64,000 bases of DNA from Acidaminococcus timonensis (GCF_900106585.1 NZ_FNWH01000005.1:249962-313961); one strand, 5' to 3'; positions 36,616 to 57,275 are shown, counted from the stretch's first letter. Notes: generated by a model from the sequence alone, not told the origin. Made by a program: numbers and translations.

Positions 36616-37545
36616 GTGGATTTTCGCGAATTGCAATATGTGGTCACGGTGGCCGATTGCCGGAACGTGACCCAGGCTGCCAGACAATTATATATTTCCC
36701 AGCCTTCCCTGAGCTATGCCCTGGGCCAGATTGAAAAAGAAATGGGTGTAAAGCTGTTCGACCGTTCCCGGCAGCCCCTGGCTCTTACGGACGCCGGCCG
36801 CATCTACGTGAAAATTGCCCGGGAGATTCTCCAGAAACGGACGGAACTGAAGGACCGGCTGGCCGATCTGAAAGACGGCCGGGGCGCCCGGATCAGCCTG
36901 GGGATCCCGGCAGAACGGGCCGGTTTCATGCTGCCTCCCATCATCAACCAGTTCCGGTCCCGGTTCCCCGATTCGGAATTTGCCATCCAGGAAGCCGGTA
37001 CCCGAAAACTGCTGGAAATGCTCCAGAACAACAAAGTCACCTTCCTGATCTGTCCCCTGGACGCCCGGGAAGTACCGGTATCCATGACCTGGGAACTGAT
37101 TTACCGGGAAACCATCCAGCTGATCGCTGCCCCGGATGCCTTCACCGAGGATATGTTCCTGGACAGGGACCACCGGCTGGTGGATTTGCACAAGCTGGCT
37201 TCCATGCCTTTCATCGGCATCAAGAAAGCCCACTCCATCAACTGGAAGGTCCAGGAGATCTTCCGGGAGTACGGAATCGCTCCCCATACCCTGATGGAAG
37301 TGGACAGCAGCTCCACCGCTGCCCAGCTGGGTGCCTGCGGCCTGGGCTTCACCCTGGTGCCCCGCCGTGCCCGGAAGATCCTGGGGCCGGACGCAGACCG
37401 CTGCTGCTACGAATATTCCCCCACCCCCGTCCAGTGGGAAATCAACGCCATCTACAAAAAAGGCGCCTACCTGAACAAGGCCGAACGGTATTTTCTGGAT
37501 CTGCTGAAAGAGTATTTCCAGAAGGAAACCACCGTCCAATTATAA
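36616..37545 (+). CDS. LysR-family transcriptional regulator 1
   Basis: 309 aa. N-terminal winged helix (DFRELQYVVTVADCRNVTQAARQ) followed by the periplasmic-binding-protein-like effector domain. A GTG start at 36616 is chosen because GAGGGAGGG lies 7 bases before it. It is divergent from the V-ATPase operon and convergent with acn1. It may regulate acn1 and the dehydrogenase gene, which share an 80-bp promoter element; that link is inference from position. Confidence 0.88.
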   Translation: MDFRELQYVVTVADCRNVTQAARQLYISQPSLSYALGQIEKEMGVKLFDRSRQPLALTDAGRIYVKIAREILQKRTELKDRLADLKDGRGARISLGIPAERAGFMLPPIINQFRSRFPDSEFAIQEAGTRKLLEMLQNNKVTFLICPLDAREVPVSMTWELIYRETIQLIAAPDAFTEDMFLDRDHRLVDLHKLASMPFIGIKKAHSINWKVQEIFREYGIAPHTLMEVDSSSTAAQLGACGLGFTLVPRRARKILGPDADRCCYEYSPTPVQWEINAIYKKGAYLNKAERYFLDLLKEYFQKETTVQL

Positions 37546-37606
37546 ACCAACACGGAAAAAGCCTTTGCACCGAACTTCGATGCAAAGGCTTTTTCCGTGT
37601 TGGTTT
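37544..37606. terminator. bidirectional terminator between lysR1 and acn1
   Basis: A perfect 26-bp stem (AAACCAACACGGAAAAAGCC... on the left arm) with an 11-base loop; A and T runs inside the arms. It overlaps the lysR1 stop codon and serves the convergent acn1. Confidence 0.85.
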
Positions 37607-37672
37607 CAATCTATGGTTTGGGAAAATCGGGGTCGGGCCGAGAGGGCGGCCCTTCCCCCGACGGTACGCGGT

Positions 37673-39973
37673 TTACAGCCCCTTCCTGGCCCGGTTGAAG
37701 TTGATCAGGCAACCGGCCTTGATGATGGCTTTTTCTTCCTCATTCAGGGGTTTGATGTACAGGCTGATGGGGACGGCGGAACCCTTCTTCACCACATAAG
37801 CCTTGATGTCCTGCATATCCCCAGCCAGGGCTTTCCGGACTTCCGGTACGTAGATGTAGTCACCCACTTCGAAATCCTTGGGTTCCCCTTTCAGATGGAA
37901 GGGCAGCATGCCCCAGTTGATCACATTGCTGCGATACCGTTTCGTGGCATAGTCCTGGGTGATGTTGGCCAGGGCCCCGATGACCCGCTGGCAGCTGGCA
38001 GCCTGTTCCCGGGCGGAACCGTCGCCGGGTTTGTTGGCATAGATAGTGGAGCCAATTTCCGTGTTGGCCAGGGTGGCATTGCCGGGCAGATCCTTCAGTC
38101 CGTCGAACACGGCCTTCAGGTCAGCATCGTCAGCCGTTACATCCTTGCCGGCTTCCCGTGCCACTTCCACTTCCTTCACTGCCTTGGTGCGACCCACATA
38201 GCCCGGATCCCGGCGGCTCAGGGTGAATTCGGCCAGGCCCAGAGGGTTGGACCGGTAGGAGGACGTTTCCCCGGAGGGGATCAGTTCGTCGGTGGTGGTC
38301 ACCGGATCCAGGATCTTGGAGCACACCTTCAGCAGGATGTTCTCACCCAGTTTGGGCAGCGTCGGCCAGTCTTTGATATTCGGCCCGTAGACCAGTTCCT
38401 TCTTCGTGTCCGCTTTGCCAAAGCCGTAGTACACACGAGCCTTGTACGGGCTTTCGTCGAAGTGGTATTCCGGCACATCGCCGAAGGCCTCGGCATATTC
38501 CTCGGCAGAGGTCAGCCGGCCGTTGTTGGCGGCGGTGGCAGCGATGCTGCGGGCATCCATCAGGGCGACGGCAGCCATCTGGCCCTGGCCCGGTTTGGAG
38601 CCTTCCCGGTTCGGGAAGTTCCGGGTGGTGTGACGGATGGACAGGCCGTTGTTGTTGGGGGTATCGCCGGCGCCGAAGCACGGTCCGCAGAAGGCGGTCT
38701 TCACAACGGCCCCGGAGGCCATGAGTTCCGTCAGATAGCCTTTGCGCATCAGGTCCATGTACACGGGCATGGAGGAAGGATAGACGTTCAGGGCGAATTC
38801 TCCGGCCCCGATGAACTTGCCTTTCAGCAGATTGGCGGCTTCCACCACGTTGGTGTAGTTCCCGCCGGCGCACCCGCCGATGACGCCCTGCTGCACCTGC
38901 AGCTTGCCGTCTTTGGTGATCTTGTCACGCAGGGTAAAGGTGGCACGGCCCTGGGCCACTTTGGCAGCGGCTTTTTCCGTTTCGGCCAGGATGTCGTCCA
39001 GGTTGGCATTCAGTTCGTCGATTTCGTAAGCGTTGGACGGATGGAACGGCAGTGCGATCATGGGTTTGATGGTGGACAGGTCGATGGAGACTACGCCATC
39101 GTAGTAGGCTACGTCAGCCGGGGTCAGTTCCTTGTAATCGGCTTCCCGGTTGTGTTCCTTCAGGAACTTGTGGGTATCCTCGTCGGTCCGCCAGATGGAG
39201 GACAGGCAGGTGGTTTCCGTGGTCATCACGTCCACCCCGTTCCGGTAGTCGGTGGTCATGCTGGCTACGCCGGGTCCAACGAATTCCATGACTTTGTTCT
39301 TCACATAGCCGTTCTTGTACACCGCACCGCAGATGGCGATGGCGATATCGTGAGGGCCGACCCAGGGTTTGGGAGTGCCGGTCAGGTACACGGCCACCAC
39401 GCCGGGATACGGGTTATCCCAGGTGTCGCCCAGGATTTGTTTGTCCAGTTCGCCGCCGCCTTCGCCCACGGCCATGGTGCCCAGGGCGCCATACCGGGTA
39501 TGGGAGTCGGAGCCCAGGATCATCTTGCCGCAGCCGGCGTACATTTCACGCATGTACTGGTGGATGACGGCCACATGGGGCGGTACGTAGATGCCGCCGT
39601 ATTTCTGGGCAGCGCTCAGGCCGAACAGGTGGTCATCCTCGTTGATGGTGCCGCCCACAGCGCACAGGGAATTGTGGCAGCAGGTCAGGATGTAGGGCAT
39701 GGGGAATTTATCCATGCCGGAAGCCTTGGCCGTTTGGATGATGCCCACGTAAGTGATATCGTGGCTGGTCAAATCGTCGAAGCGGATTTTCAGATCATCC
39801 ATGTTGTCGTTCAGGTTGTGGTTTTTCAGGATGCTATAGGCGATGGTGCCTTTTTTGGCTTCTTCTTTAGAGACCTTGCGGCCCAGCTTTTGTTCGACGG
39901 CAGCGACTTCCTCTTCCGGAATCATTTCGGTGCCGTGGAGCAGGTAGCCCCCGTTCTTGTACAGTTCGATCAT
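37673..39973 (-). CDS. aconitase-superfamily hydratase (YbhJ-like), acn1
   Basis: 766 aa. Aconitase fold: SDSHTRYG, the iron-sulfur cysteines in [10 protein letters not shown] and [10 protein letters not shown] (where classical aconitases have GSCTN), and GSARE near the C-terminal swivelling domain (classical GSSRE). Closest by motif to E. coli YbhJ and to acn2 at 43.3 kb, its paralogue, not to acn3. Expected reaction: reversible hydration of a tricarboxylate double bond. Start 39973 (AGAGG upstream) replaces a frame to 39994. It shares an 80-bp promoter element with the dehydrogenase gene. Confidence 0.88.
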
Positions 39974-40055
39974 GATGTTCCCTCTCTCTTTCACAAGTGA
40001 TTTTCCCGTAACAGCTCCGGAACGTCACCGGAGCCTTTCTGTTGTTTTCCCTTTC

Positions 40056-40135: not shown

Positions 40136-40155
40136 GCAGGAGACGGAACGCCTCC

Positions 40156-40310: not shown

Positions 40311-40325
40311 CTGCCGTTTTTGCAC

Positions 40326-40358: not shown

Positions 40359-40373
40359 CAATTTCTGGACTTT

Positions 40374-41576
40374 TTAGTCAAGGTTTTTCAGCGTATCCAG
40401 CAGGTAATCGGTGAATTCTTCTGCGGTAGCGCCGTCTTTGTCCGTGGTGATGACCACTTTCTTTTCCGTACGGGTGCAGATATCCAGAGCCTTCACCAGC
40501 TTTTCCTTCTTGTCGGCGTAGCCGATGTGGCTGATCATTTCGCCCATGGCCCGGATCAGGCTGCAGGGATCGGCGTACTGGGCCCGGTGGTGCTGTACCA
40601 GGAAGTTTCCCACCCCGTGGATGGCTTCGAACAGGGCGTACTGGTCGCCGATGTTGGAGGAGCTGGCCGTGCCCAGGCCGCCCTGGTATTCGGCAGCCAC
40701 GTCAGTGACGATGTCCCCGTACAGGTTCGGCAGCAGGAATACCTGCATCCCTTTGGTGAATTCCTGGTCCGTGATCTTGGCGGCCATGGCATCCACCAGT
40801 TCTTCCCGGACGGTGATGCCCGGATATTCTTTTTCCACCTGGTGGGCCATCTTCAGGAAGTTGCCGTCCACCAGTTTCACAATGTTGGCCTTGGTGACCA
40901 CGGTCACATTGGTCTTGCCGTTGTTCTTGGCGAATTCAAAGGCAGCCCGGCAGATCCGTTCGGCGCCGGGGCGGGTCAGGACCTTGAAGTCCACGGCCAG
41001 GTCATCGTTTACCTGGATGCCCTTGTTGCCCCAGATGTATTCCCCTTCGATGTTCTCCCGGAAGAACGTCCAGTCGATGCCCTTTTCGGGGATCCGCACC
41101 GGCCGTACAGCGGCATACAGCTGCAGGGCCCGGCGCAGCAGGCTGTTGGCGCTGACCATGTTCGGCCAGGGATCACCGGCCCGGGGCGTCACGAACGGTC
41201 CCTTCACCAGCACGTCGCAGGCCTTGCAGGCTTCCAGCACTTCCGGCGGCAGGCTTTCGTTCTTTTTGGCCCGTTCTTCGATGGTCATGCCCGGGATGGT
41301 CCGGAATTCCACCTTGCCTTCGGCCACTTCTTCGGCCAGCAGGTATTTGGCCACCCGCAGAGCCTGTTCCATGATGTAGGGCCCGATGCCGTCGCCGGGC
41401 AGGATGCCCACGGTGATGTGGCTCAGTTTCTTGAAGTCCTTCCGGGCCGGAGCGTTCTTGATGGTTTCGATCCGTTTGAAGTCCTCCCGAATCAGAGCGC
41501 CGAAACGTTCCATGGCCTTGCGGATGACTTCTTCCTGTGCCTGTTCGTCATATTCCTTCTGATTCATGATTTCCAT
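40374..41576 (-). CDS. isocitrate/isopropylmalate-family dehydrogenase
   Basis: 400 aa. A roughly 45-residue N-terminal extension precedes GILPGDGIGP; ANSLLRRALQLYAAVRP and FRENIEGEY are the substrate-loop motifs, and the Asp metal ligands lie in NLYGDIVTDVAAEYQGG. Family members oxidatively decarboxylate a 2-hydroxy acid; beside three aconitase-type genes isocitrate (giving 2-oxoglutarate) is the natural guess, with homologous substrates possible. Start 41576 has GGGAGA 7 bases before it. It carries the same 80-bp promoter element as acn1. Confidence 0.85.
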   Translation of the reverse strand: MEIMNQKEYDEQAQEEVIRKAMERFGALIREDFKRIETIKNAPARKDFKKLSHITVGILPGDGIGPYIMEQALRVAKYLLAEEVAEGKVEFRTIPGMTIEERAKKNESLPPEVLEACKACDVLVKGPFVTPRAGDPWPNMVSANSLLRRALQLYAAVRPVRIPEKGIDWTFFRENIEGEYIWGNKGIQVNDDLAVDFKVLTRPGAERICRAAFEFAKNNGKTNVTVVTKANIVKLVDGNFLKMAHQVEKEYPGITVREELVDAMAAKITDQEFTKGMQVFLLPNLYGDIVTDVAAEYQGGLGTASSSNIGDQYALFEAIHGVGNFLVQHHRAQYADPCSLIRAMGEMISHIGYADKKEKLVKALDICTRTEKKVVITTDKDGATAEEFTDYLLDTLKNLD

Positions 41577-41872: not shown

Positions 41873-43294
41873 TTACACCTCCGGCAGCTTTTCCGCTTCC
41901 GGCAGGCTCAATAACTTCCTCGCCACCTGGGCGGCCTGGTGGGGATACACATTGGCCAGTAACCCCTCCGCCTTCTGCAGGGCCGCCTCCTCGCTGAGGG
42001 GCTTCCGGTACGACCCGGTGGGGTCCTGGATGAACTGCCCCAGCACCCGGCCGTCCTTCAGCTGTACCTTCACCCGGCAGCTCCAGTGGTCCGGGTAGGC
42101 CGCCGTCAGGTCCGCCGCCTCCCGCACCCGGATCCGCCCCAGCATCGTCTGGATGGCCGGGTCCGCCACTTTTTCCGGGGTGAACAGGCTCTGGTCCACC
42201 TGCCCCAACAGCATAGCCCCGGCCAGGGTAAAGGGCAGGGAGAACTTGGCGTCCAGGGGGTTCTGAGGATGCAGGCACCCGTCACTGACGGCGCACTGCT
42301 GGTACCCGATCTTATACGTTTCTGCCTCCAGGCTCACCACGCTGTCCAGGATCCGCTGCTCCGCATCTGCCAGAAGCAGCATCCCCTCTCCCAGGATGGC
42401 CTTCCGCAGGGACAGGGCGCCGTCGATGCCCGCATGGGCACTGCGACAGCAGGGATACGGCTTCATATCCATGTTCAGGATTTCCCAGGTAGTCCCCAGG
42501 CCTTCCGTCAGTTTCTCCAGGTGGCCGCCGTCACTCATGGCATTCAGCAGTCCCCCGTCTTCCGCCTCCAGCACGTGGACCGGACCCTGCATGCCATAGC
42601 GGGCCAGATAGGTGCAGCGCAGACCGGTCATGGCCGCCTGCCCCGGGTTCAGCACCTTGGAGTTCGTGCCGTCCCCCAGGAACGCCCATACCCCCGTGGT
42701 CTGGGACCCGGCCAGTCCCAGGGCCGAAGCCGTTCCTTCCGCATCGAGGCCAAGCAGATGGGCACAGGCCGCTGCCACCCCGAACGTGCCGCAGGTGGCC
42801 GTGGCATGCCAGCCCCGTTTCCGGTGGGCCGCCACTCCGAAGGCCATGCCCACTCGGTGGGCCACTTCGTAGCCGGCCACCAGGGCGGTCAAAAAATTCT
42901 TCCCCGTGCTGCCCAAGGCGTGGCCCAGGCACCAGGCCGCCGGGATCATACTGGAGGAGATGTGGGTCTTGGACCCGGGATGCACATCGTCCAGTTCCAG
43001 GGTATGGGCCAGCATGGCATCCAGCATGGCCGCCTCCGTCACGGACCATCTTTCCTCCAGGGGCTGTCCCAACAGGGCCACCCCCGTGCGCCGGTTTTCC
43101 GGATCCAGGGCCCGCAGGGCCTGTTTCATTCTTTCCACCAGCGGGTCACCCACGGCCCCCAGGGCCACGCTGATCAGATCCAGGGCCCGGTAGACTGCCG
43201 CCTGCTGTACTGTTTCAGGGAGCCCATCCCAAGAAAGGCTGGCCGCAAATGCAGCCAGCTTTCCCAGAGGTGCCTCCCGCACCGTTTGTTCCAT
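41873..43294 (-). CDS. MmgE/PrpD-family protein
   Basis: 473 aa. Family motifs: LDDVHPGSKTHISSSMIPAA, GWHATATCGTFG, and the C-terminal small domain with KVQLKDGR. The family includes 2-methylcitrate dehydratase, cis-aconitate decarboxylase and iminodisuccinate epimerase, all acting on small tri- or dicarboxylates, so the exact reaction is open. It starts 10 bases after acn2 and is the last gene of a prpF-acn2-prpD type operon. Confidence 0.85.
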   Translation of the reverse strand: MEQTVREAPLGKLAAFAASLSWDGLPETVQQAAVYRALDLISVALGAVGDPLVERMKQALRALDPENRRTGVALLGQPLEERWSVTEAAMLDAMLAHTLELDDVHPGSKTHISSSMIPAAWCLGHALGSTGKNFLTALVAGYEVAHRVGMAFGVAAHRKRGWHATATCGTFGVAAACAHLLGLDAEGTASALGLAGSQTTGVWAFLGDGTNSKVLNPGQAAMTGLRCTYLARYGMQGPVHVLEAEDGGLLNAMSDGGHLEKLTEGLGTTWEILNMDMKPYPCCRSAHAGIDGALSLRKAILGEGMLLLADAEQRILDSVVSLEAETYKIGYQQCAVSDGCLHPQNPLDAKFSLPFTLAGAMLLGQVDQSLFTPEKVADPAIQTMLGRIRVREAADLTAAYPDHWSCRVKVQLKDGRVLGQFIQDPTGSYRKPLSEEAALQKAEGLLANVYPHQAAQVARKLLSLPEAEKLPEV

Positions 43295-43304: not shown

Positions 43305-45587
43305 TCAGCTTTCTTTGAACAGGTTGATCATGGACCCGGCCAGCAGGGTCTTCCGTTCCGTGTCGTTCAGGATCTTCAGGTCCAGGTGCAGGGTCCGGGT
43401 GCTGCCATCGGTGCCAATGACCGTGGCGTCGATGCCACCTTTGTTTTCGGCTACGATCTCACGGATGTTCGGCAGCCATACCCATTCGCCCACCTTCAGG
43501 TCGATGTGGTCGTCCGGGTTCGTGAAGGGCAGCATGCCCCAGTTCACGCAGTTGCTGCGATACCGTTTCGTGGCGTATTCGATGCAGATGTTGGCCAGGC
43601 CGCCCAGCACCTTCTGGCAGGACGCCGCATATTCACGGGCGGAACCATCCCCCGGCCGTTTGGCGTACAGCACGGAGCCGATACCGGTGGTCGCCAGCAG
43701 GGTATCCAGGTTCTTGTTCACGTCGATGCCCACATTCTTCAGCGGAGCATAGAATTCTGCAGCGGTCTTCCGGTCGCCGGCCAAACGGGCTTTTTCATAG
43801 GCCTGGGCAGCTTTGGCCCGGCCCACATACTTCGGATCCTTCCGCAGCAGGGTAAATTCGGAGATCTTATAGGGGTTGGACCGGTAGGAAGCCGTTTCCC
43901 CGGATGGGATCAGTTCGTCGGTGGTGGTCACTTCGTCCCGGATGACGGAAGCCACCTGGAGCAGCAGGTTGTCGGTCAGGTGTTCCATGGCCGGCCAGTC
44001 CTTGATGAACGGTCCATAGACGATTTCCGTTTCCGGCTGGGCCTTGCCGAAGCCGTTGTAGACCACGTTGTCATAGATTTTCTTGTTGAACGTGAACGCC
44101 GGGATGTCCTCTGGTTTGAACACGTCCTTGATTTCCTCGGCGGAGGTCAGATAGCCACCGTTGAAGGCCGTGGCCGCAATGCTCTTGGAATCCATCAGAG
44201 CAGCGGAAGCCACCTGGCCCATATTGGGTTTGGAGCCTTCCCGGTTCGGATAGTTCCGGGTGGAATGGCGCAGCACGAAGGCATTGTTTTCCGGGCAGTC
44301 ACTGGCACCGAAGCAGGGTCCGCAAAACGCGGTCTTCACCCGCACGCCTTCCGTCATCAGGTCATTGACGATACCGTCCTTGTTCAGCTCGGTGAGCACC
44401 GGCTGGGAAGCGGGGTAGATGTTCAGGGGGAACATGCCCAGGCCCCGGTTTTCGGCTCTGGCCACCTGGTCCACATAGGAGATGTTTTCGAAGGAACCGG
44501 CCGCGCAGCCGGCGATGGCAGCCTGGTCCACCCGAATGCGGCCGTTCTTCTGGATCTTGCTCAACATATCCGGATGGATGTCCGGGTTGTTCTCGAAGAC
44601 AGTTTTGGCGTTATCTTCCACGTACTTCATGTATTTTTCCGGACGGGCGATCACGTCCTTCAGCGGGAAGGCATTGGACGGATGGTACGGCAGGGCGATC
44701 ATGGGTTCCACCGTACTCAGGTCGATGTGAATCAGGCGGTCATAGTAGGCCTTGTCGCCGGGCACCAGGTGCTTGTAATCGGCTTCCCGGTCGTGGATCC
44801 TGTAATCTTCCCGTACCTTGTCATCGGTTTCCCAGATGGAGGTCAGGCAGGCGGATTCCGTGGTCATGGTGTCGATGCCGTTCCGGGTATCCATGGATAA
44901 GGAGGCGATGCCGGGGCCGAAGAATTCCAGGATCCGGTTCTTCACGAAGCCGTTCTTGAACGTGGCACCGATCAGGGTCAGAGCTACATCCATGGGTCCC
45001 ACCCAGGGTTTGATGAAGCCGGTCAGGTAGATGCCCACCACTTCCGGGTATTTCAGTTCATAGGTCTTGTCCAGCATGGCTTTGGCTACTTCCGGGCCCC
45101 CTTCGCCGATGGCCAGGCAACCCTGGCTGCCGTACCGGGTGTGGGAATCGGACACGATGGCCATGCTGCCGCCCTTGACGATCATTTCCCGCATGTAGGA
45201 ATGGATGACGGCTTCATGGGGCGGTACGAAGATGCCGCCGTACTTCTTGCAGATGGTCTCGGCGTATTTGTGCACATCGGAGTTGATGGTGCCGCCTACG
45301 GCGCACAGACAGTTGTGGCAGTTGGTGAACACCGTAGGCACCGGGAATTTCTTCAGGCCGGAAGCACAGGCGGTCTGCATGATGCCCACATAGGTATTGT
45401 CGTACACGCCGATGGAGTCGAACTTCAGCTGCAGGTTGGCCGGGTCGCCGCTGGTGTTGTGGTCTTCGATGATCTGGTAGGCAATGGTGTGCTTTTTGCC
45501 TTCAGCCGCATCCAGTTCCGGATGATCCTTGGCCGGTACCGGTTTGCCGTCAACCAGGTAATGTCCTTCTGCAAAACATTCAATCAT
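43305..45587 (-). CDS. aconitase-superfamily hydratase (YbhJ-like), acn2
   Basis: 760 aa, clear paralogue of acn1 over its full length. The same motifs are seen: [22 protein letters not shown] at the first cysteine, [10 protein letters not shown] for the other two, and DGSARE at the C-terminal domain. Reaction presumed to be hydration/dehydration of a tricarboxylate other than, or in addition to, citrate. GAGGAG lies 9 bases before the ATG. Middle gene of the prpF-acn2-prpD set. Confidence 0.88.
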   Translation of the reverse strand: MIECFAEGHYLVDGKPVPAKDHPELDAAEGKKHTIAYQIIEDHNTSGDPANLQLKFDSIGVYDNTYVGIMQTACASGLKKFPVPTVFTNCHNCLCAVGGTINSDVHKYAETICKKYGGIFVPPHEAVIHSYMREMIVKGGSMAIVSDSHTRYGSQGCLAIGEGGPEVAKAMLDKTYELKYPEVVGIYLTGFIKPWVGPMDVALTLIGATFKNGFVKNRILEFFGPGIASLSMDTRNGIDTMTTESACLTSIWETDDKVREDYRIHDREADYKHLVPGDKAYYDRLIHIDLSTVEPMIALPYHPSNAFPLKDVIARPEKYMKYVEDNAKTVFENNPDIHPDMLSKIQKNGRIRVDQAAIAGCAAGSFENISYVDQVARAENRGLGMFPLNIYPASQPVLTELNKDGIVNDLMTEGVRVKTAFCGPCFGASDCPENNAFVLRHSTRNYPNREGSKPNMGQVASAALMDSKSIAATAFNGGYLTSAEEIKDVFKPEDIPAFTFNKKIYDNVVYNGFGKAQPETEIVYGPFIKDWPAMEHLTDNLLLQVASVIRDEVTTTDELIPSGETASYRSNPYKISEFTLLRKDPKYVGRAKAAQAYEKARLAGDRKTAAEFYAPLKNVGIDVNKNLDTLLATTGIGSVLYAKRPGDGSAREYAASCQKVLGGLANICIEYATKRYRSNCVNWGMLPFTNPDDHIDLKVGEWVWLPNIREIVAENKGGIDATVIGTDGSTRTLHLDLKILNDTERKTLLAGSMINLFKES

Positions 45588-45663: not shown

Positions 45664-45703
45664 TCAAGCTGACATCTGACATCTGGTGTCTGACATCTCC
45701 TTA
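45664..45703. repeat. short degenerate tandem repeat (CTGACATCT words)
   Basis: AGCTGACATCTGACATCTGG followed by TGTCTGACATCTCC: three to four imperfect copies of an 8-9 base word between acn2 and prpF. Confidence 0.6.
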
Positions 45704-46825: not shown

Positions 46826-46874
46826 GCTGATTGCCTCCTTCAAGCTTGCCATCCGTTTCTCTCTTGATGGCTTC

Positions 46875-46941
46875 AGTATACCGCTTTCAAAGCATTATGA
46901 AAAATGATAGAATATAGTCATAAGCAATTCCGAATTGGAAT
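46875..46941 (-). promoter_or_regulatory. prpF-operon promoter and LysR2 operator
   Basis: Operator ATTCC-N5-GGAAT (46927-46941), 22 bases, -35 TTTTCA (46898-46903), 17 bases, -10 TATACT (46875-46880). The identical operator, 22-base gap, -35 and 17-base spacer are found before matC1. Confidence 0.8.
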
Positions 46942-46959
46942 AGATTGGATGTGAGTACC

Positions 46960-47817: not shown

Positions 47818-47844
47818 GAAAATGCAAAGCATTTTCTCAAGGCT
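47810..47844 (+). terminator. terminator after lysR2
   Basis: AGCCTTGAGAAAATGC aaa GCATTTTCTCAAGGCT, a perfect 16-bp stem that contains the stop codon. Confidence 0.8.
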
Positions 47845-47878
47845 CCTGTCATACGTCATAGGTCATACGCCAAAGGAT
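47845..47878. repeat. short degenerate tandem repeat (GTCATACG/GTCATAGG words)
   Basis: GTCATACGTCATAGGTCATACG: three imperfect copies of an 8-base word between two terminators of convergent genes. Confidence 0.55.
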
Positions 47879-47901
47879 AAAATTTGCCTTTGGCAAATTT
47901 T
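47879..47901 (-). terminator. terminator after lactonase1
   Basis: AAAATTTGCC ttt GGCAAATTTT palindrome overlapping the stop codon of the lactonase gene. Confidence 0.65.
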
Positions 47902-50256: not shown

Positions 50257-50323
50257 ATTATAGGAGGCCAAAGCTATTCTGAAAAATGAAAAATAAGAGG
50301 ATAAATTCATTCCCTATGGGAAT
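50257..50323 (-). promoter_or_regulatory. matC1 promoter and LysR2-type operator
   Basis: Operator ATTCC-N5-GGAAT (50309-50323), 22 bases, -35 TTTTCA (50280-50285), 17 bases, -10 TATAAT (50257-50262). Same geometry as the prpF promoter. The operator lies between matC1 and the divergent aminopeptidase gene, whose own -10 TATAAT is at 50354-50359. Confidence 0.8.
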
Positions 50324-50390
50324 TGTTCATTTCCCAGACAGCACAAATTCCTGTATAATGGAACCAAATGCACGCAAAGGAGAGATTTCC

Positions 50391-51632
50391 ATGACCATAC
50401 AAGAAACCCTGGCTCGCCAGCTGCCCCTGTACGCCCGGGTCCTGTTACAAAAAGGCATCAACCTGCAGAAGGACCAGATCCTGGTGATCAACGCCCCGGT
50501 GGAAGCCCACTCGTTCGCCTCCCTGCTGGCAGAGGAGGCCTACAAGGCCGGTGCCGCCCAGGTGGTGTTCAACTGGTACTGCAACGCCGCCACCCGGCTG
50601 CGCTACCAGTACGAGACCCAGGACAAATTCGAGACCGTTCCCCCCTGGCGTAGCGAATTCAACCTGTACTATTATCGGAAGGGCGCGGCCTTCCTGAGCC
50701 TGATTTCCGCTGACCCCTACAGCATGCAGGGCATCGACCGGAAGAAGATTTTTGCCTGGCAGAAAGCGTTCCATCAGGCCGTGAAGGAGTATTCCGACGG
50801 CATGATGGCTTCCCGGACCAACTGGCTGGTGGCCGCCGTACCCAGCACCGTATGGGCGAATCTGCTGTATCCGCAGTTGCCGGAAAAAGAAGGGCTGGAC
50901 AAGCTGTGGCTCCAGATCCTGGACGTATCCCGCTGCCTGGGTGATGACCCTCTGACCGACTGGGACAAACACCTGGAAACCCTGAAGCAGCGGCGGGAAT
51001 GGCTCACCGCCCAGCAGTTCACGGCCCTGGAATATGCCAGTGGGAAAGGCACGAAGCTCACCGTGGGCCTGCCGAAGCATCACATCTGGCAGGGCGGGGC
51101 GGAAAGCACCACCCGGGGCTTCCTGTTCAACGCCAACATCCCTACGGAAGAAGTGTATTCCGCTCCCCAGGCAGACCGGGTGGACGGTGTGGTCTGGAGC
51201 ACGAAGCCCCTGGTCTACAACGGGAACCTGATCGAGGATTTCCAGTTCACTTTCAAAGACGGGAAAGTGGTGGACGTACAGGCCGCAAAGGGACAGGAAA
51301 TCCTGGAAGACCTGATCAAGATGGACGAAGGTGCCTGCCGCCTGGGCGAAGTGGCCCTGGTACCCTACCATTCCCCCATTTCCCTGACGAACCAGATCTT
51401 CTACGAGACCCTGTTCGACGAAAACGCTGCCTGTCACCTGGCTCTGGGAGACTCCTATCCCACCTGCCTGGAAAAGGGCCCGGAGCTCAGAGACGAAGAA
51501 CTGAAAAAAGCTGGGCTCAACGATTCCATGATCCACGTGGATTTCATGGTGGGCAGCCCGGATCTGACCATTACCGGGATCCGGAAAGATGGGACCAGGG
51601 TGCCCGTGTTCGTGAATGGGGATTGGGCGTAA
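50391..51632 (+). CDS. M29-family aminopeptidase (AmpS/AmpT type)
   Basis: 413 aa, full length. The N-terminal domain (NLQKDQILVINAPVEAHSFASLLAEEAYKAGA) and the C-terminal metal-binding part (GEVALVPYHSPIS ... NQIFYETLFDENAACHLALG) match thermophilic-type M29 aminopeptidases. Cytoplasmic, releases N-terminal residues with two metal ions. The start 50391 has AAAGGAG 8 bases upstream; a frame to 50286 is longer but has no site. It interrupts the tricarboxylate island on the other strand, possibly by chance. Confidence 0.9.
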   Translation: MTIQETLARQLPLYARVLLQKGINLQKDQILVINAPVEAHSFASLLAEEAYKAGAAQVVFNWYCNAATRLRYQYETQDKFETVPPWRSEFNLYYYRKGAAFLSLISADPYSMQGIDRKKIFAWQKAFHQAVKEYSDGMMASRTNWLVAAVPSTVWANLLYPQLPEKEGLDKLWLQILDVSRCLGDDPLTDWDKHLETLKQRREWLTAQQFTALEYASGKGTKLTVGLPKHHIWQGGAESTTRGFLFNANIPTEEVYSAPQADRVDGVVWSTKPLVYNGNLIEDFQFTFKDGKVVDVQAAKGQEILEDLIKMDEGACRLGEVALVPYHSPISLTNQIFYETLFDENAACHLALGDSYPTCLEKGPELRDEELKKAGLNDSMIHVDFMVGSPDLTITGIRKDGTRVPVFVNGDWA

Positions 51633-51636
51633 AAAA

Positions 51637-51784: not shown

Positions 51785-53047
51785 TTAAAAGATCAGGTTG
51801 TAGAACCCGACCCCTGCCAGCAGAGTCAGCACCACCAGGATGCCCAGAGCCCAGCCGGTCAGTTCCATGAACAGCTTCATTTCTTCATCTTTTTTCGCCG
51901 TCCCGCTTTCGTCCGCCATCAAAGTGGCCATGATCAGGCCGCCGGTGGTGGAAATGGGGCTGAGGCCGGTGATGGTCCCGCCGATGACCACCATGGACCC
52001 CAGTTCAACCGGGTTCACACCCACGGATTGTCCCAGGGAAGCCACGGTGGGAAGCAGCGTGGGGAACACCACGCCCAGGCCGGAGGAGAACAGGCTCATG
52101 ACCCCTGCCGTGCAGGCCATGACCGCCGGAGCGGTATAACTGTTCATGAAGGTGGACAGGGCCGCCGTCAGTAGCTTGATACCCCCGGTCTTGATCACCA
52201 GGTTCATGAGGGTACTGACGCCGGACACCATGAGCAGCACACCCCAGGGGATGGCCTTCAAGCTGTCCTTTTCCGAGGCTGCATGGCACATGAGCAGTAT
52301 GGCGCTGACGGAGAAGCTGGTGAGCCCCACATTCTGTTTGAACGCAATGACCAGCACAGCCATGACCAGGAGTCCCAGCAGGGACAGCAACTGCTGCCCG
52401 GTGAATCCGGACAGTTTCTCTTCCGTCCCCTTTTCCGGCATCTGGATCCGGTAGCCCTTGTAGTAGACAAAGGCTGCCAGGGCGATGAGGATGCCGCTGA
52501 TCATCTGGGCCGTATAGATGGGCCGTACCGCAGCCACCGCATCCAGCCCGCTCTGCCGCAACAGATCATAGGATAGCAGTCCTTCCGGGGTAATGGGACT
52601 CATGCGCCCTCCGAAACAGCCACTGCACCCGATGATGGCCAGCATCAGAGGGTTGTAGCCCCGGGCCCTGGCCAAAGGGATGGCAATGGCCGGCATGATG
52701 GCCAGCAGGGGAATGGACCCCGGCCCGATTCCGGTAAGCAGGGCTCCCATGAGGAAGACCGCGATGGGAATCAGGTATTTGTTGCTGCCGGCCAGGCTCA
52801 CGATTTTCCGGGCCAGCAGTTCAATGGTACCATTCTTGTTCAGGATGCTGAACAACAGGGTGACGCCCATCAGGTTGATGAACAGGTTGGGCTTGAAGCC
52901 CTTCAGGATTTCCGCCGTGGGAATGCCGGCCACCTTGCCCAGCACAAAGGCAAAGAGCAGGCAGACCAGGCCCACATTGGTCTTGCGGAAAAAGCCGATG
53001 GCGATGGCCACCGCCAAGAGCAGCAGAGAAATGATACCCAGCTCCAT
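51785..53047 (-). CDS. MatC-type carrier, matC2
   Basis: 420 aa, about eleven membrane segments, paralogue of matC1 (FFRKTNVGLVCLLFAFVLGK at the N-terminus; TGIGPGSIPLLAIMP and SSGLGVVFPTLLPTVASLGQ hairpins). Likely carries a related organic anion. Third gene of the acn3-lactonase2-matC2 operon, 12 bases after lactonase2. AAGGAGGAAGG precedes the ATG. Confidence 0.85.
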   Translation of the reverse strand: MELGIISLLLLAVAIAIGFFRKTNVGLVCLLFAFVLGKVAGIPTAEILKGFKPNLFINLMGVTLLFSILNKNGTIELLARKIVSLAGSNKYLIPIAVFLMGALLTGIGPGSIPLLAIMPAIAIPLARARGYNPLMLAIIGCSGCFGGRMSPITPEGLLSYDLLRQSGLDAVAAVRPIYTAQMISGILIALAAFVYYKGYRIQMPEKGTEEKLSGFTGQQLLSLLGLLVMAVLVIAFKQNVGLTSFSVSAILLMCHAASEKDSLKAIPWGVLLMVSGVSTLMNLVIKTGGIKLLTAALSTFMNSYTAPAVMACTAGVMSLFSSGLGVVFPTLLPTVASLGQSVGVNPVELGSMVVIGGTITGLSPISTTGGLIMATLMADESGTAKKDEEMKLFMELTGWALGILVVLTLLAGVGFYNLIF

Positions 53048-53059: not shown

Positions 53060-54259
53060 TTACCGAAATACCACAGTGCAGGGGCTTTCCGTCTTCACGG
53101 TCTTCCCGGTGAAGTGGAGCTGCCCGTTTTTGCCTTCCGGCGCAAAGAACTGCAGGGTGTCACTGTCCATATTGGCCACCAGCAGCTGTCCTTCCGGCGT
53201 CAGGGTCATGAACCGGGGCGTGTACCCTTCACAATTCGTCCACTGGGGATTCCCCAGCAGCCCCGTCTTCGGGTCGATTGTGTAGCTGACCACCGTTTCC
53301 TGGCCCCGGAAGGTCCCGGCATACCCTTCCCCTTCCGGCGGGATGCCCTCTTTGATCCGGTTGGACACATAGACCTGTTTCCCGTCCCGGCTCAGGACGA
53401 TGGCACTGGCCATATTAGGTCCCACATACGTATCCTGCAGAGTGGGGACCACCTGTCTGGCGGTCAGCTGTCCTTTCTGATCGTCGAAATCGAACACCCG
53501 CAGGGTGCTGGCTTTTTCGTTCACCAGATACACGTGCCGATTATCCTTGCTGAACACCAGGTGGCGGGGTTCGTCGTATTTCCGGGCTTCCGCATAGGAC
53601 GTGCGGGTCAGTTTGCCCGTGTTTTCGTCCAGGGCCAATACCCATACCCGGTCATAGCCGATGCCCCTTGCCTGGGTGGGGACCAGTAGCCATTTGCCCG
53701 TCCGGTCCAGCACGCAGGCATGGGCGTGGGAGATGCCGCCAGCCTTGGGGCCTTCGAAATGCTCCACGCTGACCGCTTCGCCCAGGCTCCCGTCGGCCCG
53801 GATGGGCAGGCTGGCCACCGCTCCGCCTTGGAGGCTGGCCACCAGCAGGAATTGATTATTAGGGGTCACCACACCATACACCGGGTTTTTTCCCTGGGCA
53901 TCCACCGTATCCAGGAATTCCAGGTCCCCATCTTCTTTGATGCGGAAGACACTGACTTCGTGACCATCCCCATGGACGGTATAAAGATATTTTTTTGTCT
54001 GGTCCAGTACCAGCCAGGCCGGGTTGTCCAGAGTCTTCGTGATGCCTTCCAGCTTCCAGTTGCCTTTCTCGTCGATGGTGTAGCGGGAAATGCCCTTCCC
54101 GTGGGCATAGCGCTTCGCTGTAGTCCGGCAGCCTACATATGCAGTAGTCATTTTCTTCGTTCCTTTCTCGATTTTCTGATTCGCCATCCCTACGCCCGTC
54201 CCTGCCATGCACAGCAGCATGGTGGACAGGACCAGGCGGAGCCAGCTGCTTTTTTTCAT
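53060..54259 (-). CDS. exported lactonase-family beta-propeller protein
   Basis: 399 aa. A signal peptide (MKKSSWLRLVLSTMLLCMAG, cut near GMA) precedes a seven-bladed propeller like lactonase1, with SHAHACVLDRTGKWLLVPTQ at the active-site blade. Predicted periplasmic, unlike its paralogue. An internal ATG (MTTAYVGCRTT) would give a cytoplasmic form, but the upstream ATG has AGGAG 9 bases before it and overlaps the acn3 stop (ATGA). It may open lactones before uptake by matC2. Confidence 0.85.
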   Translation of the reverse strand: MKKSSWLRLVLSTMLLCMAGTGVGMANQKIEKGTKKMTTAYVGCRTTAKRYAHGKGISRYTIDEKGNWKLEGITKTLDNPAWLVLDQTKKYLYTVHGDGHEVSVFRIKEDGDLEFLDTVDAQGKNPVYGVVTPNNQFLLVASLQGGAVASLPIRADGSLGEAVSVEHFEGPKAGGISHAHACVLDRTGKWLLVPTQARGIGYDRVWVLALDENTGKLTRTSYAEARKYDEPRHLVFSKDNRHVYLVNEKASTLRVFDFDDQKGQLTARQVVPTLQDTYVGPNMASAIVLSRDGKQVYVSNRIKEGIPPEGEGYAGTFRGQETVVSYTIDPKTGLLGNPQWTNCEGYTPRFMTLTPEGQLLVANMDSDTLQFFAPEGKNGQLHFTGKTVKTESPCTVVFR

Positions 54260-56211
54260 TTTTTATTCTCCTCTGCCAGTTTGGCCTTGTAGAACCGCAG
54301 CTTGCCGCCAGCCAGCAGGATTTCCACTTCCTGGTCCGTCAGTTCCAGTTTCACTGTGAAACGGGTCCCTTTGCTCAGGTTCTGGATTTCAATGGTTTTG
54401 TTCTTCATCTGGTCCCGCAGGTTGTCGATATGGAAAGTATCATCCAGGTCGATGCCATCGTAGGCCGCCTTGTCCACGAACACGGCCGGGATCACCCCGT
54501 GGTTGATCAGGTTTCCCTTATGGATGCGGGCGAAACTCTTTGCAATGACCATTTTCACGCCCAGATACATGGGGGTGATGGCCGCATGTTCCCGGCTGGA
54601 ACCCTGGCCGTAGTTCTCGCCGCCCACGATGAAGCTCTTGCCGTCCTTCTGGGCCCGTTTGGCAAAGTCCGGATCATACCGGCAGAAGGCATACTGGGCC
54701 ATGGCCGGCATATTGCTCCGCATGGAGGAGAACTGGGCGCTGGCCGGCGTGATATCGTCGGTGGAGACGTTGTCCCGGGCCTTCAGGCTGACCTTGGCTT
54801 CCAGAATCTCTTCCGGAGGATCGGCCACCGGCAGGGGTTTGATGTTGGGTCCCCGGACGATCTGGATATCCCGGCCGTCTTCCGGCGGCAGCAGGAACAG
54901 GTTGTCGTTGATGGGATAGATTTCCGGTTCCTTCACTGTACCCAGCACGCTTACATCGTCCATCACTTCCTGGGGCAGGGCCAGCCGCCCCTTGATGGCC
55001 GTGGCCGCCGCCACTTCCGGGCTCACCAGATACAGACTGGCATCCGCCGTAGAGCTGCGTCCCTTGAAGTTCCGGTTGCTGGTCCGTACGGAAATCCCCT
55101 TGCTGGAAGGGGCGATGCCGATGCCGCAGCAGGGGCCGCAGGCAAATTCCGTGATCCGGGCTCCGGCGTTCAGCAGGTCGGCCACCACCCCATCCTGGAG
55201 CAGCTGCAGGTAGATCTGCCGGGAGCTGATACCCAGCACCAGGCTCACATCCGGATTGATCTTATGGCCTTTCAGCACCAGGGCCACCTTCTTGAAATCG
55301 CTGTAGGAGCCGTTGGTACAACTGCCGATGAACACCTGCTGGACCGGCACCTTGGGCACATCGGCCACCTTCATCACATTGTCCGGCATATGGGGGCAGG
55401 CCACCAGGGGTTCCAGCGCATCCAGATCCAGGTTGATCTCTTCGTCATAGGAACAGCCGGCATCGGGCAGCCATTCGGTATAGTCCTGCTCCCGGTCCTG
55501 GGCCTTCAGGAAGTTCCGCACCTGTTCATCCGCCGGGAACACGGAGGTGGTGGCTCCCATTTCTGCTCCCATGTTGGCAATGGTCAGCCGTTCGGGGATG
55601 GACAGCGTCTCCACGCCCTCGCCCACATATTCGTAGACCTTCCCCACGCCGCCCTTCACCGTATTCCGGCGCAGCATTTCCAGGATGATGTCTTTGGCAG
55701 CCGTGCCCGGACGCAGATGGCCTTTCAGGTTCACCTTCACCACCTTGGGCATCTTCAGTACATAGGGGAACCCGGCCAGGGCCACGGCGATATCCATGCC
55801 GCCCACCCCGATGGCCAGCATGCCCAGGGCTCCGCAGCTGGGGGTATGGCTGTCGCCGCCCAAAAGCAAGGCACCCGGTTTGCCGAAGCGGCTGCACTGG
55901 AGGGCATGGCAGATGCCGTTGCCGGCTTTGGACAGGATCAGTCCGTATTTCTGGGCAATGGATTGCAGGTAGATGTGGTCATCCGGAGTCTTGTTGTCAA
56001 TCTGCAGCAGATTGTGATCGATGTAGCTCACGGACAGTTTCGTCCGTACCCGGTTCAGATCCAGAGCTTCAAAAGCCAGGTAGGCCATCACCGCATTGAT
56101 ATCGTGGGTCAGGGTCTGATCCACCGTCACCTTGATTTCCTGTCCGGGGACCAGCTCCGCAGGTTCTGCCAGATGGGCCGCAAACAGTTTTTGTGTCAGA
56201 TTCATTGCCAT
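54256..56211 (-). CDS. aconitate hydratase (classical motifs), acn3
   Basis: 651 aa. Classical cluster cysteines: GSCTNGSYSDF, ACGPCCGIG; also GGDSHTPSCGALG and the C-terminal GGENYGQGSSREHAA. Length and motifs match the single-chain aconitases of anaerobic Firmicutes. Interconverts citrate, cis-aconitate and isocitrate using a [4Fe-4S] cluster. The ATG at 56211 is preferred (9 bases from GAGGAG); 56217 and 56205 are possible. First gene of an operon with lactonase2 and matC2, divergent from lysR3. Confidence 0.93.
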   Translation of the reverse strand: MAMNLTQKLFAAHLAEPAELVPGQEIKVTVDQTLTHDINAVMAYLAFEALDLNRVRTKLSVSYIDHNLLQIDNKTPDDHIYLQSIAQKYGLILSKAGNGICHALQCSRFGKPGALLLGGDSHTPSCGALGMLAIGVGGMDIAVALAGFPYVLKMPKVVKVNLKGHLRPGTAAKDIILEMLRRNTVKGGVGKVYEYVGEGVETLSIPERLTIANMGAEMGATTSVFPADEQVRNFLKAQDREQDYTEWLPDAGCSYDEEINLDLDALEPLVACPHMPDNVMKVADVPKVPVQQVFIGSCTNGSYSDFKKVALVLKGHKINPDVSLVLGISSRQIYLQLLQDGVVADLLNAGARITEFACGPCCGIGIAPSSKGISVRTSNRNFKGRSSTADASLYLVSPEVAAATAIKGRLALPQEVMDDVSVLGTVKEPEIYPINDNLFLLPPEDGRDIQIVRGPNIKPLPVADPPEEILEAKVSLKARDNVSTDDITPASAQFSSMRSNMPAMAQYAFCRYDPDFAKRAQKDGKSFIVGGENYGQGSSREHAAITPMYLGVKMVIAKSFARIHKGNLINHGVIPAVFVDKAAYDGIDLDDTFHIDNLRDQMKNKTIEIQNLSKGTRFTVKLELTDQEVEILLAGGKLRFYKAKLAEENKK

Positions 56212-56318
56212 GGTCATTCTCTCCTCTTCCCTCTTGGAATCATTTTCATAATTGCCGTGATATTTCGCGCAATTCAATCTTCTTTATGCTCATAGGGTAC
56301 CACAGCCCTTGCCGTTTG

Positions 56319-56359
56319 TATAATATTAGATTATAATTGACTTATAATATAAAATTATA
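56319..56359. promoter_or_regulatory. two LysR3 operator palindromes and lysR3 promoter
   Basis: TATAAT-N5-ATTATA occurs twice, at 56319-56335 and 56343-56359, 24 bases apart, in the gap between lysR3 and acn3. The -10 of lysR3 (TATAAT, preceded 17 bases earlier by TTGCCG) overlaps the first copy, which fits autorepression. Confidence 0.7.
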
Positions 56360-56372
56360 AGGAGGATACACC

Positions 56373-57275
56373 ATGGATTCCCGGGATCTGGAATATGTGC
56401 TGACCATTGCCCGCACCAGCAGCTTTTCTCAGGCCGCCCGGCAGCTGTTCATCAGCCAGCCGGCCCTGAGCCAGTATGTCAAACGGCTGGAGCAGAATCT
56501 GAACGTGACCCTGTTCTACCGCAGCCGCAGTCGGGTAGAACTTTCCCCGGCGGGGATGTTTTACGTAAAACAGGGGGAGGCCATCCTGAAGGCCATGCAG
56601 GAACTGGAACAGACCATGCGCCACTGGCAGCAGAAAGAGACGAAGCAGCTGAGCATCGGAGTGTCCCAGTTCTACGGCAAATGGTTCCTCACCCCCTACC
56701 TGCAGGACATCCGGCAGCAACTGCCCAGCTGGCAGATCCGGATCGTGGATGGGGAATCTCACAATCTGGAAGTCCTGATGCTCCAGGGAAAGCTGGATTT
56801 TGCCATTTTTCCGGCCCCCACCACCCATAAGGAAATCACCTTCTTATCCCTGGGGGATGAAGAGATCCTGTTTGCCTTCAGCGAAGAAAACCGGGAAGCC
56901 ATGGACCTGCTGCCCCGGGCCCTGACCCCCAAAGGCATCGATTTGGCACTGTACCGGCACTTTCCCTTCGTCCTGCCCCGGGAAGGGCTGAAGATGCACA
57001 AAGCGGCTCTGAAGATCTGCCGCCAGTTCGGCTTCCAGCCCCAGTCCGTCTATTCCTCCGAAAATCTGGATACGGTGTATTCCCTGGTAAACCACAATTA
57101 CGGGGTGGGGTTCCTGCCCGATGTGATTGCCAAAAACTACGACCCCCGCACGAACCATGTGCGCTTCTTCCATCTGAAGAGCCGGTACAACCATCGGGCC
57201 GTGGGCCTGGCCTACCGGGAAGGGGCCCCGCTCCAGGATCTGGCCTCCAAACTGTATCAGGCCATAAAAAAATAG
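56373..57275 (+). CDS. LysR-family transcriptional regulator 3
   Basis: 300 aa. HTH MDSRDLEYVLTIARTSSFSQ followed by the effector domain. AAGGAGG lies 8 bases before the ATG. Divergent from acn3-lactonase2-matC2 with paired operators in between, so it is the probable regulator of that operon. The effector is presumably a tricarboxylate, unproven. Confidence 0.9.
   Translation: MDSRDLEYVLTIARTSSFSQAARQLFISQPALSQYVKRLEQNLNVTLFYRSRSRVELSPAGMFYVKQGEAILKAMQELEQTMRHWQQKETKQLSIGVSQFYGKWFLTPYLQDIRQQLPSWQIRIVDGESHNLEVLMLQGKLDFAIFPAPTTHKEITFLSLGDEEILFAFSEENREAMDLLPRALTPKGIDLALYRHFPFVLPREGLKMHKAALKICRQFGFQPQSVYSSENLDTVYSLVNHNYGVGFLPDVIAKNYDPRTNHVRFFHLKSRYNHRAVGLAYREGAPLQDLASKLYQAIKK

Follow-up and report, generated by a model that had tools for sequence, protein, structure and literature searches.

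We analyzed a window of 64,000 nucleotides from Acidaminococcus timonensis (GCF_900106585.1 NZ_FNWH01000005.1:249962-313961; genome G000, 2.30 Mb in 6 contigs), in which an island of about 21 kb at 36598-57275 gathers genes typical of tricarboxylate metabolism. The island holds three LysR regulators, three aconitase-family genes, one PrpF, one MmgE/PrpD, one Iso_dh, two PF10282 lactonases, two MatC/CitMHS carriers, and one M29 peptidase, and Pfam confirmed every one of these families. All gene families named in an earlier, sequence-only reading of this DNA are thus present in the 21-kb stretch, and that reading had omitted the M29 metallopeptidase. Positions are those of the window.

36598..37545, + strand: LysR1 regulator, tail-to-tail with YbhJ1 (Pfam LysR_substrate 101.9 bits, HTH_1 71.5 bits)
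37673..39994, - strand: YbhJ1, YbhJ-type hydratase, ATG at 39973 the probable start (NF008503 1344 bits, cut-off 641; 66% identity to E. coli YbhJ)
40374..41576, - strand: IDH, isocitrate-type dehydrogenase (Iso_dh 189.8 bits; S-x-N-x-x-L-R motif)
41873..43294, - strand: MmgE/PrpD-family protein (PF03972 206.8 bits, PF19305 118.6 bits)
43305..45587, - strand: YbhJ2, divergent YbhJ-type hydratase (NF008503 1033.6 bits, cut-off 641; 51% identity to YbhJ1)
45701..46852, - strand: PrpF-family isomerase, probable aconitate isomerase (PF04303 430 bits)
46945..47817, + strand: LysR3 regulator, divergent from PrpF (LysR_substrate 97.7 bits, HTH_1 58.6 bits)
47900..48940, - strand: Lac1, beta-propeller lactonase of the tricarboxylate-associated subfamily, no signal peptide seen (PF10282 262.8 bits)
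48956..50212, - strand: MatC1 carboxylate carrier (CitMHS 88.6 bits, MatC_N 77.2 bits)
50286..51632, + strand: M29 aminopeptidase (Peptidase_M29 538 bits)
51785..53047, - strand: MatC2 carboxylate carrier (MatC_N 108.7 bits, CitMHS 80.4 bits)
53060..54259, - strand: Lac2, lactonase with a hydrophobic N-terminal extension, a putative signal peptide (PF10282 251 bits)
54256..56277, - strand: Acn, monomeric aconitase, ATG at 56217 the probable start (NF005558 (PRK07229) 888.5 bits, cut-off 612)
56373..57275, + strand: LysR2 regulator, divergent from Acn (LysR_substrate 103.8 bits, HTH_1 73.8 bits)

Both PF10282 matches of the whole 2.30-Mb genome fall inside the island, as do one of its two PrpF genes, two of its three YbhJ-type genes over cut-off, and its sole PRK07229-type aconitase over cut-off; because these genes concentrate here, their clustering exceeds chance. 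Gene spacing suggests three regulated units. Unit A, Acn-Lac2-MatC2, is divergent from LysR2 and tightly packed, with a 4-base overlap between the Acn stop and the Lac2 start and 12 bases from Lac2 to MatC2. Unit B, PrpF-YbhJ2-MmgE-IDH, is divergent from LysR3, and MatC1-Lac1, encoded on the PrpF strand, lies upstream of LysR3; the 296-base gap between MmgE and IDH means that IDH may have its own promoter. YbhJ1 stands tail-to-tail with LysR1, and the sequence between them contains a strong 20-pair hairpin (37552-37598), a probable YbhJ1 terminator. A promoter scan found 9 candidates against a mean of 7.8 in shuffled sequence, which is not above chance. One minus-strand open reading frame (46918-47859) was considered as the third LysR gene and rejected, as it has no Pfam match and the LysR3 gene overlaps it on the plus strand. 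The M29 peptidase separates the two lactonase units and also adjoins MatC1 in Acidaminococcus genomes G410 and G407, but it shows no evident tie to the pathway.

Lac1 and Lac2 are not 6-phosphogluconolactonases but members of a rare subfamily with three private invariant arginines. Nineteen members, with pairwise identity down to 34%, keep the general PF10282 core of His143, Arg195, His196, Glu211, Arg264, and Arg295 (Lac1 numbering). Arg8, Arg13, and Arg161 are invariant in all 19 and occur in none of 26 other proteins (25 phylum loci and E. coli Pgl); Arg8 replaces a Tyr of ordinary PF10282 proteins, and Arg13 and Arg161 fall where the others have gaps. The subfamily alignment has 50 invariant columns, 13 of them subfamily-specific, including the 3 Arg. 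Outside Acidaminococcaceae, complete members score 244 to 290 bits to Lac2, and subfamily genes sit next to aconitase genes, in most cases with MatC as well, in Acidaminococcus, Oribacterium, Lachnoclostridium, Sedimentibacter, and Klebsiella spallanzanii. As a control, we located PF10282 genes in a 398-genome sample of the phylum, which gave 28 full-length places (E<1e-30) in 20 genomes, two of them the window's own, and examined 10- to 20-kb stretches around all 26 others. None of the 26 has MatC, PrpF, YbhJ, or a PRK07229-type aconitase nearby, and their scores to Lac1 or Lac2 do not exceed 154 bits, so the idea that PF10282 genes of this phylum generally sit with tricarboxylate genes was rejected. 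Control locus L156 has weak Acn, IDH, and HMGL matches (152, 92, and 72 bits) and looks like a leucine operon. Since no other genome of the sample has a Lac1/Lac2-like member, the subfamily is rare.

Within Acidaminococcus the linkage is recurrent. A lactonase (1e-20) is present in 8 of 9 Acidaminococcus genomes and in 1 of 50 other genomes of the family searched, and MatC adjoins it in 12 of 12 Acidaminococcaceae genes retrieved from outside the window as well as in both of the window's cases. Unit A (Acn-Lac-MatC) is present in G404, G410, G409, G405, and G406. Lac1-MatC1 has PrpF and YbhJ2 close by in G410, G409, G406, G411, and G407, with the one-strand order PrpF-YbhJ2-MatC1-Lac1 in G409, G406, and G411; in G405 and G432, PrpF and YbhJ2 lie outside the stretch holding Lac1-MatC1. 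Acidaminococcus fermentans VR4 (G404, locus L179) carries IDH-MatC2-Lac2-Acn, divergent from LysR2, in one stretch with YbhJ1, PrpF, and a 2HCT carrier. This strain is reported to use trans-aconitate and citrate, as the sequence-only reading had noted for the species, and its genome paper assigns Acfer_1968 (IDH), Acfer_1969 (MatC), and Acfer_1971 and Acfer_1973 (aconitases) to trans-aconitate fermentation (PMC3035267). The L179 gene run fits these four genes, and the lactonase would then be Acfer_1970; the word lactonase is absent from the main text of that paper. The hydrophobic extension of Lac2 also occurs in A. fermentans, and none comparable was seen at the N termini of the other homologues compared, so putative export would be a local feature.

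To place the island more widely, we seeded a scan of named genomes with the window's IDH and followed the best 80 of 183 confirmed loci. Group I comprises the 53 of these 80 with at least 500 bits to the window IDH; it is a score group and not a tree, and flanks are incomplete at some of the 80 loci, where absences are soft. The group I neighborhoods contain LysR (45), Acn (37), YbhJ (26), PrpF (24), 2HCT carrier (17), RraA-like aldolase (13), Mem_trans carrier (10), MatC (8), alpha/beta esterase (7), and citrate lyase CitE/F (6), and PrpF and YbhJ share 22 loci (Fisher 6.8e-9, uncorrected for descent). This neighborhood survey, of a kind that the sequence-only reading had proposed, finds IDH of this type recurring with Acn, YbhJ, PrpF, and LysR in many anaerobes, frequently accompanied by carboxylate carriers and at times by citrate lyase. 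A subfamily lactonase is present in 6 of the 53, one of the six cut by the locus end, where phylum density (assumed mean genome 2.69 Mb) would predict about 0.02 PF10282 genes; a gene of L192 tried as the completion of that cut lactonase (L077) proved to be a different gene at 102 bits and was not counted. All six loci have Acn and five have MatC, IDH being there by construction. This repeated linkage, in other Acidaminococcus and in distant genera, bears out the claim that the lactonase belongs to the gene set, and the 47 group I loci without one make the lactone branch an optional add-on.

One distant example is K. spallanzanii (L123), with LysR-Lac-MatC-Acn-PrpF-YbhJ-IDH in order, then AcnB, and further on MatC with CitC, CitE, and CitF. 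Its YbhJ and LysR are of enterobacterial type, the gene set matches that of the anaerobe loci, and among 198 sampled genomes of its family only this genome has a lactonase (1e-50), which suggests that the cluster was assembled by transfer. A near-identity search of E. coli genomes and plasmids for the cluster, which would not pick up diverged copies, gave a match to ybhJ alone. Among lactonase-free IDH loci, an alpha/beta-hydrolase esterase was seen in L079, L080, L085, L098, L101, L112, L122, and L130, mostly beside a 2HCT carrier. Six of the 7 group I esterase loci have the 2HCT carrier and none carries esterase and lactonase together; one might speculate that the esterase offers another means of opening an ester or lactone. 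Near the 2HCT carrier there is also a recurrent protein of about 239 residues (L081, L099, L103, L107, and L113), whose representative has no Pfam or NCBIfam match.

We consider it reasonably likely that Lac1 and Lac2 open some tricarboxylate lactone. Isocitrate gamma-lactone would be the simplest substrate, because the lactonase loci carry Acn, unit A is Acn-Lac-MatC, and isocitrate and citrate are the common pool of the neighboring enzymes; we name it tentatively, at somewhat below an even chance. Isocitric lactone has been reported from the leaves of sugarcane and is listed in a table of cattle metabolites (PMC6129145, PMC11860350), making the proposed substrate plausible in forage. A search of the open-access literature (subscription papers lay outside it) found no paper combining an isocitrate-lactone term with "lactonase", and hydroxycitrate lactone gave nothing enzymatic by title. 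A different tricarboxylate-like lactone, such as hydroxycitrate lactone (hibiscus or garcinia acid) or 2-hydroxyparaconate, could instead be what the pathway degrades, an alternative that we rate as less probable but still serious. The private arginines would fit several polyanionic lactones, and Pseudomonas has its own 2-hydroxyparaconate lactonase (PMC9875883), so microbes do meet such compounds. However, the smallest set, LysR-lactonase-aconitase-IDH in Sedimentibacter saalensis (L114, with IDH there by construction), can process isocitrate directly, and locus clustering, with few lactonase loci to draw on, gave no extra enzyme tied to the lactonase.

Whatever acid is released, the island's IDH is likely, with good confidence, to use isocitrate. 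Its nearest NCBIfam models are IDH models (best 208.1 bits against an equivalog cut-off of 509) and its nearest PDB match is an NAD-IDH. Its closest named relatives among the loci listed, a listing that may omit records very close to the window's genome, are in A. provencensis (90% identity) and A. intestini (72%). The Ser/Asn motif, which we take to bind the gamma-carboxylate of isocitrate, is kept in 79 of 82 IDH sequences (72 match S.N..LR, and 7 more have M or I for L); L127 differs, and L129 and L138 were not resolved by the pattern. The stretch after EAIHG in Acidaminococcus IDH (VGNFLVQHHRAQYADP in the window) departs from its relatives, whose loop there contains TAP or SAP. In the other 27, lower-scoring IDH loci, Acn occurs in 13, YbhJ in 3, and an HMGL-type synthase in 13. 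Two of these synthases were checked and are relatives of homocitrate and isopropylmalate synthases, scoring below the cut-offs; we infer that the group are Re-citrate synthases, and Acn together with a presumed Re-citrate synthase beside IDH relatives is what would be expected if these enzymes are isocitrate dehydrogenases.

On context and residues, YbhJ is probably an isoform of aconitase. Both island copies belong firmly to the NF008503 family and are not AcnD (59.5 and 68.7 bits, cut-off 1419.85), and the island's Acn is placed among the PRK07229 aconitases. In the 398 phylum genomes, YbhJ exceeds its cut-off in 31, PRK07229 Acn is found in 171 (threshold 1e-150; 169 exceed the cut-off), and AcnA in 29, and the latter two sets do not intersect. 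YbhJ co-occurs with PRK07229 Acn or AcnA, the two types tested, in 2 genomes where 15.6 would be expected (Fisher p 7.6e-8, uncorrected for descent), and the 2 of the 31 with a PRK07229 aconitase over cut-off are the window's genome and G298. The remaining aconitase-like matches in the 31 are YbhJ itself, LeuC or LeuC-LeuD-like frames (by size and score), and fragments, which leaves YbhJ as the only aconitase-like protein in 29, apart from the LeuC-like frames. In genus g12, G003 has YbhJ and G155 has Acn, and families f2, f23, f35, and f102 likewise show both states in different genomes. YbhJ lies beside citrate synthase and an NAD-type IDH in all 3 sampled genomes of genus g3, of the window's class (this IDH, at 149 to 157 bits, falls outside the window's IDH group), and directly precedes IDH in L147 and L151. 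Phylum loci L060, L066, L067, L068, and L071 have citrate lyase close to YbhJ, as does L051. This last locus, of G298 from the window's phylum, lines up CitF, CitE, Acn, YbhJ, IDH, two PrpF genes, and MmgE consecutively; genes for citrate lyase ligase and for a TAXI-type (NMT1_3) binding protein lie close by.

The competing view, that YbhJ is a pseudo-enzyme or regulator, has to be weighed residue by residue. In the numbering of the bovine enzyme, 74 of 74 YbhJ sequences keep C358, C421, C424, H101, H147, D165, S166, H167, E262, R447, R452, R580, S642, and R644. Against an active enzyme, all 74 have Cys in place of Asp100, the Asp of the catalytic Asp-His pair that 54 of 54 Acn retain, 55 of the 74 carry Ala at Ser643, and the Thr-Asn that follows the first cluster Cys (Cys358) in aconitase differs in YbhJ; these are the only departures among the catalytic, cluster, and substrate-arginine positions checked. 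A paper that cites Blank et al. 2002 moreover describes E. coli YbhJ as an aconitase paralogue without catalytic activity; it also reports that ybhJ deletion lowers NADPH, as icd deletion does (PMC4054840). Given that phenotype, the retained residues, the 29 of 31 genomes, and the loci pairing YbhJ with citrate synthase and IDH or with citrate lyase, we regard an inactive YbhJ as unlikely. An aconitase isoform would also make sense of the island itself: trans-aconitate inhibits aconitase (PMC4945632), and a tolerant isoform would explain YbhJ beside PrpF in a genome that already has Acn. The predicted structure of YbhJ2 was poor (mean predicted local distance difference test score, pLDDT, 63.9, with several stretches of the active site falling below 50), and no fold search was based on it.

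It is quite unlikely that Lac1 and Lac2 act on sugar-acid lactones as ordinary 6-phosphogluconolactonases or gluconolactonases and only happen to adjoin tricarboxylate genes. Their best NCBIfam model is indeed 6-phosphogluconolactonase NF008258, yet Lac1 reaches 147.1 and Lac2 93.2 bits against a cut-off of 370. The nearest folds to the Lac1 model (pLDDT 93) are Pgl-type and PpgL-type lactonases, the latter a periplasmic gluconolactonase, with carboxymuconate lactonizing enzyme at rank 10; the sequence core and this model place Lac1 and Lac2 in the seven-bladed propeller fold that they share with Pgl/PpgL and the fungal carboxymuconate enzyme. They differ from these enzymes in the three private arginines, in having no pentose-phosphate context, and in their tie to tricarboxylate genes, which recurs in unrelated genera against 0 of 26 for ordinary PF10282 genes. 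The glucose-6-phosphate dehydrogenase gene zwf had no PF02781 match in this 99.91% complete genome, whereas 9 of 14 control genomes match, E. coli included, and its absence rules out an oxidative pentose phosphate role.

The same facts separate two parts of an E. coli comparison that the sequence-only reading had drawn with pgl-ybhDHIJ as a whole. The pgl part fails, because E. coli Pgl is only 23 to 25% identical to Lac1/Lac2, lacks the private residues of the subfamily, and would be expected to serve the pentose phosphate route, which the window's genome, having no zwf, cannot run; E. coli pgl does not belong to the analogy. The ybhD-ybhHIJ part holds, with PrpF-type, carrier, and YbhJ-type genes and a divergent LysR in common and identities of 66% (YbhJ1) and 49% (YbhJ2) to YbhJ and 38% (PrpF) to YbhH. 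A second locus of the window's genome, L041, reads YbhJ-MatC-PrpF with a divergent LysR, the E. coli layout ybhJ-ybhI-ybhH//ybhD with another carrier; at the threshold used, nothing in the window corresponds to YbhI itself. The 19.5 kb examined around E. coli ybhDHIJ contain no IDH, Acn, or related lactonase. YbhD regulates ybhH and ybhI, and the reported L-malate-related phenotype does not settle the substrate (PMC9068703). The tarRAB system of Bacillus velezensis likewise combines a PrpF-family aconitate isomerase, an importer, and a regulator, but its importer TarB is discussed among MFS proteins, whereas the island carriers are MatC/CitMHS rather than MFS, and the word lactone is absent from the main text of the tarRAB paper (PMC11495376). 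AcnD-PrpF of the 2-methylcitrate cycle also pairs an aconitase-family enzyme with a PrpF isomerase (PMC5690661), and differs in that the island's YbhJ is not AcnD.

For PrpF itself, the evidence leans toward isomerization of aconitate. The catalytic Cys and Lys of the superfamily are present in the NCGN and STSK motifs, NCGN with its Cys being kept in 30 of 30 PrpF sequences and the Lys motif in 29 of 30, and the PrpF-family proteins TarA/TbrA and Ustilago Adi1 are aconitate isomerases (PMC11495376, PMC4720413). PrpF scores 313.3 bits to TIGR02334 (2-methylaconitate isomerase; cut-off 440.55) and 325.5 bits to NF033377 (4-oxalomesaconate tautomerase; cut-off 440), below both cut-offs. MmgE is nearest in the PDB to IDS epimerase and then to IRG1/cis-aconitate decarboxylase, and is far from the 2-methylcitrate dehydratase PrpD equivalogs (32.1 bits against 950 and 22.3 against 575). 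These affinities allow an itaconate-type reading of the unit, in which MmgE would convert cis-aconitate to itaconate, PrpF would act as a methylitaconate-type isomerase, YbhJ would hydrate, and IDH would oxidize a methylmalate. PrpF is indeed closest to methylitaconate isomerase (PDB 3g7k, 315 bits, followed by PrpF entries at 263 to 265 and YbhH at 213). The retained Ser/Asn motif of IDH, whose role we presume, argues against this, as does the recurrence of PrpF and YbhJ at IDH loci where MmgE is absent (0 of the best 80 at the threshold used), and Adi1 is Mii-related yet isomerizes aconitate (PMC4720413). We consider the itaconate-type reading improbable. A chance neighborhood of unrelated acid-metabolism genes is more improbable by far, for although the units, each having a LysR of its own, are oriented apart and have the M29 peptidase between them, the modules recur across Acidaminococcus and related sets in distant genera, conserved neighborhoods that already contradict it.

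Several observations nevertheless count against a pathway that opens a tricarboxylate lactone and passes the acid through PrpF and YbhJ to IDH. IDH, PrpF, MmgE, and both lactonases score below every NCBIfam equivalog cut-off, and the best PDB match of PrpF is a methylitaconate rather than an aconitate isomerase. The private residues of the lactonases partly reflect how the subfamily was chosen, by more than 200 bits to Lac1 or Lac2. Within the stretch covered, 47 of 53 group I loci have no lactonase, and Acidaminococcus G408 has none. MmgE occurs in three other Acidaminococcus genomes and in G298 but was absent, at the threshold used, from the best 80 IDH loci. PrpF is near YbhJ in 3 of 31 phylum neighborhoods (L041, L051, and L057) and a lactonase in 0 of 31, so neither tie is general.

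The genes around the island are of other kinds. To its left, genes for V/A-type ATP synthase subunits (29924-36029) end immediately before it; to its right lie an IS21-type transposase and IstB (58672-60851), with G+C of about 0.49 against 0.54 to 0.64 in the island, followed by a second, IS3-like element (HTH protein and rve integrase) at 61925-63345. A T-box leader (Rfam RF00230, 110 bits) is found on the minus strand at 12911-13166.

From the gene content, conserved contexts, and active-site residues observed here, the island very probably encodes a tricarboxylate pathway, and the import, isomerization, hydration, and oxidation to 2-oxoglutarate proposed in the sequence-only reading are upheld as the reactions these genes suggest. 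It is fairly likely to be a modular, LysR-controlled locus for the uptake and fermentation of plant tricarboxylates. In module A (Acn-Lac2-MatC2 with LysR2), the lactonase would open a tricarboxylate lactone, possibly outside the cytoplasmic membrane, MatC2 would take in the free acid, and Acn would equilibrate isocitrate and citrate. In module B (MatC1-Lac1, PrpF-YbhJ2-MmgE, IDH, and LysR3, with YbhJ1 beside it), MatC1 would import a tricarboxylate, PrpF would convert trans- to cis-aconitate, YbhJ, as an aconitase isoform perhaps tolerant of trans-aconitate, would hydrate this to isocitrate or citrate, and IDH would yield 2-oxoglutarate from isocitrate. The 2-oxoglutarate could enter the 2-hydroxyglutarate pathway in a glutamate fermenter, and citrate could be passed to citrate lyase; the window's genome encodes the alpha subunit of that enzyme at another place.

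The trans-aconitate and citrate part is not new for Acidaminococcus. A. fermentans VR4 shares the genus and has IDH, MatC, aconitase, and YbhJ-type genes in one stretch, fitting Table 6 of its genome paper, and the published route runs via citrate, oxaloacetate, and pyruvate (Haertel and Buckel 1996, through PMC3035267), with no lactonase in that paper's main text. What stands of the claim that a lactone branch is undescribed is that, in the open-access titles and abstract beginnings listed (subscription journals not being covered), we saw neither a lactonase placed in a pathway of this kind nor YbhJ described as an aconitase.

Taken jointly, the bolder reading is that Lac1 and Lac2 found a family of lactonases for a tricarboxylate lactone, namely isocitrate gamma-lactone, a new entry to tricarboxylate fermentation in gut anaerobes, and that YbhJ is a third, trans-aconitate-tolerant class of aconitase with Cys for the catalytic Asp; we hold this combination only tentatively and think it rather unlikely to be right in full. 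If it were true, E. coli ybhDHIJ would be a module for trans-aconitate import, isomerization, and hydration, which gives that uncharacterized region a concrete, testable assignment, and the genome-scale data give reason to question the inactivity ascribed to YbhJ. In ruminants, trans-aconitate fermentation is of importance because the alternative product, tricarballylate, is harmful. The predicted lactonases would add a new substrate class to the PF10282 fold, and would bear on how gut bacteria use the acids and lactones of fruit and forage.

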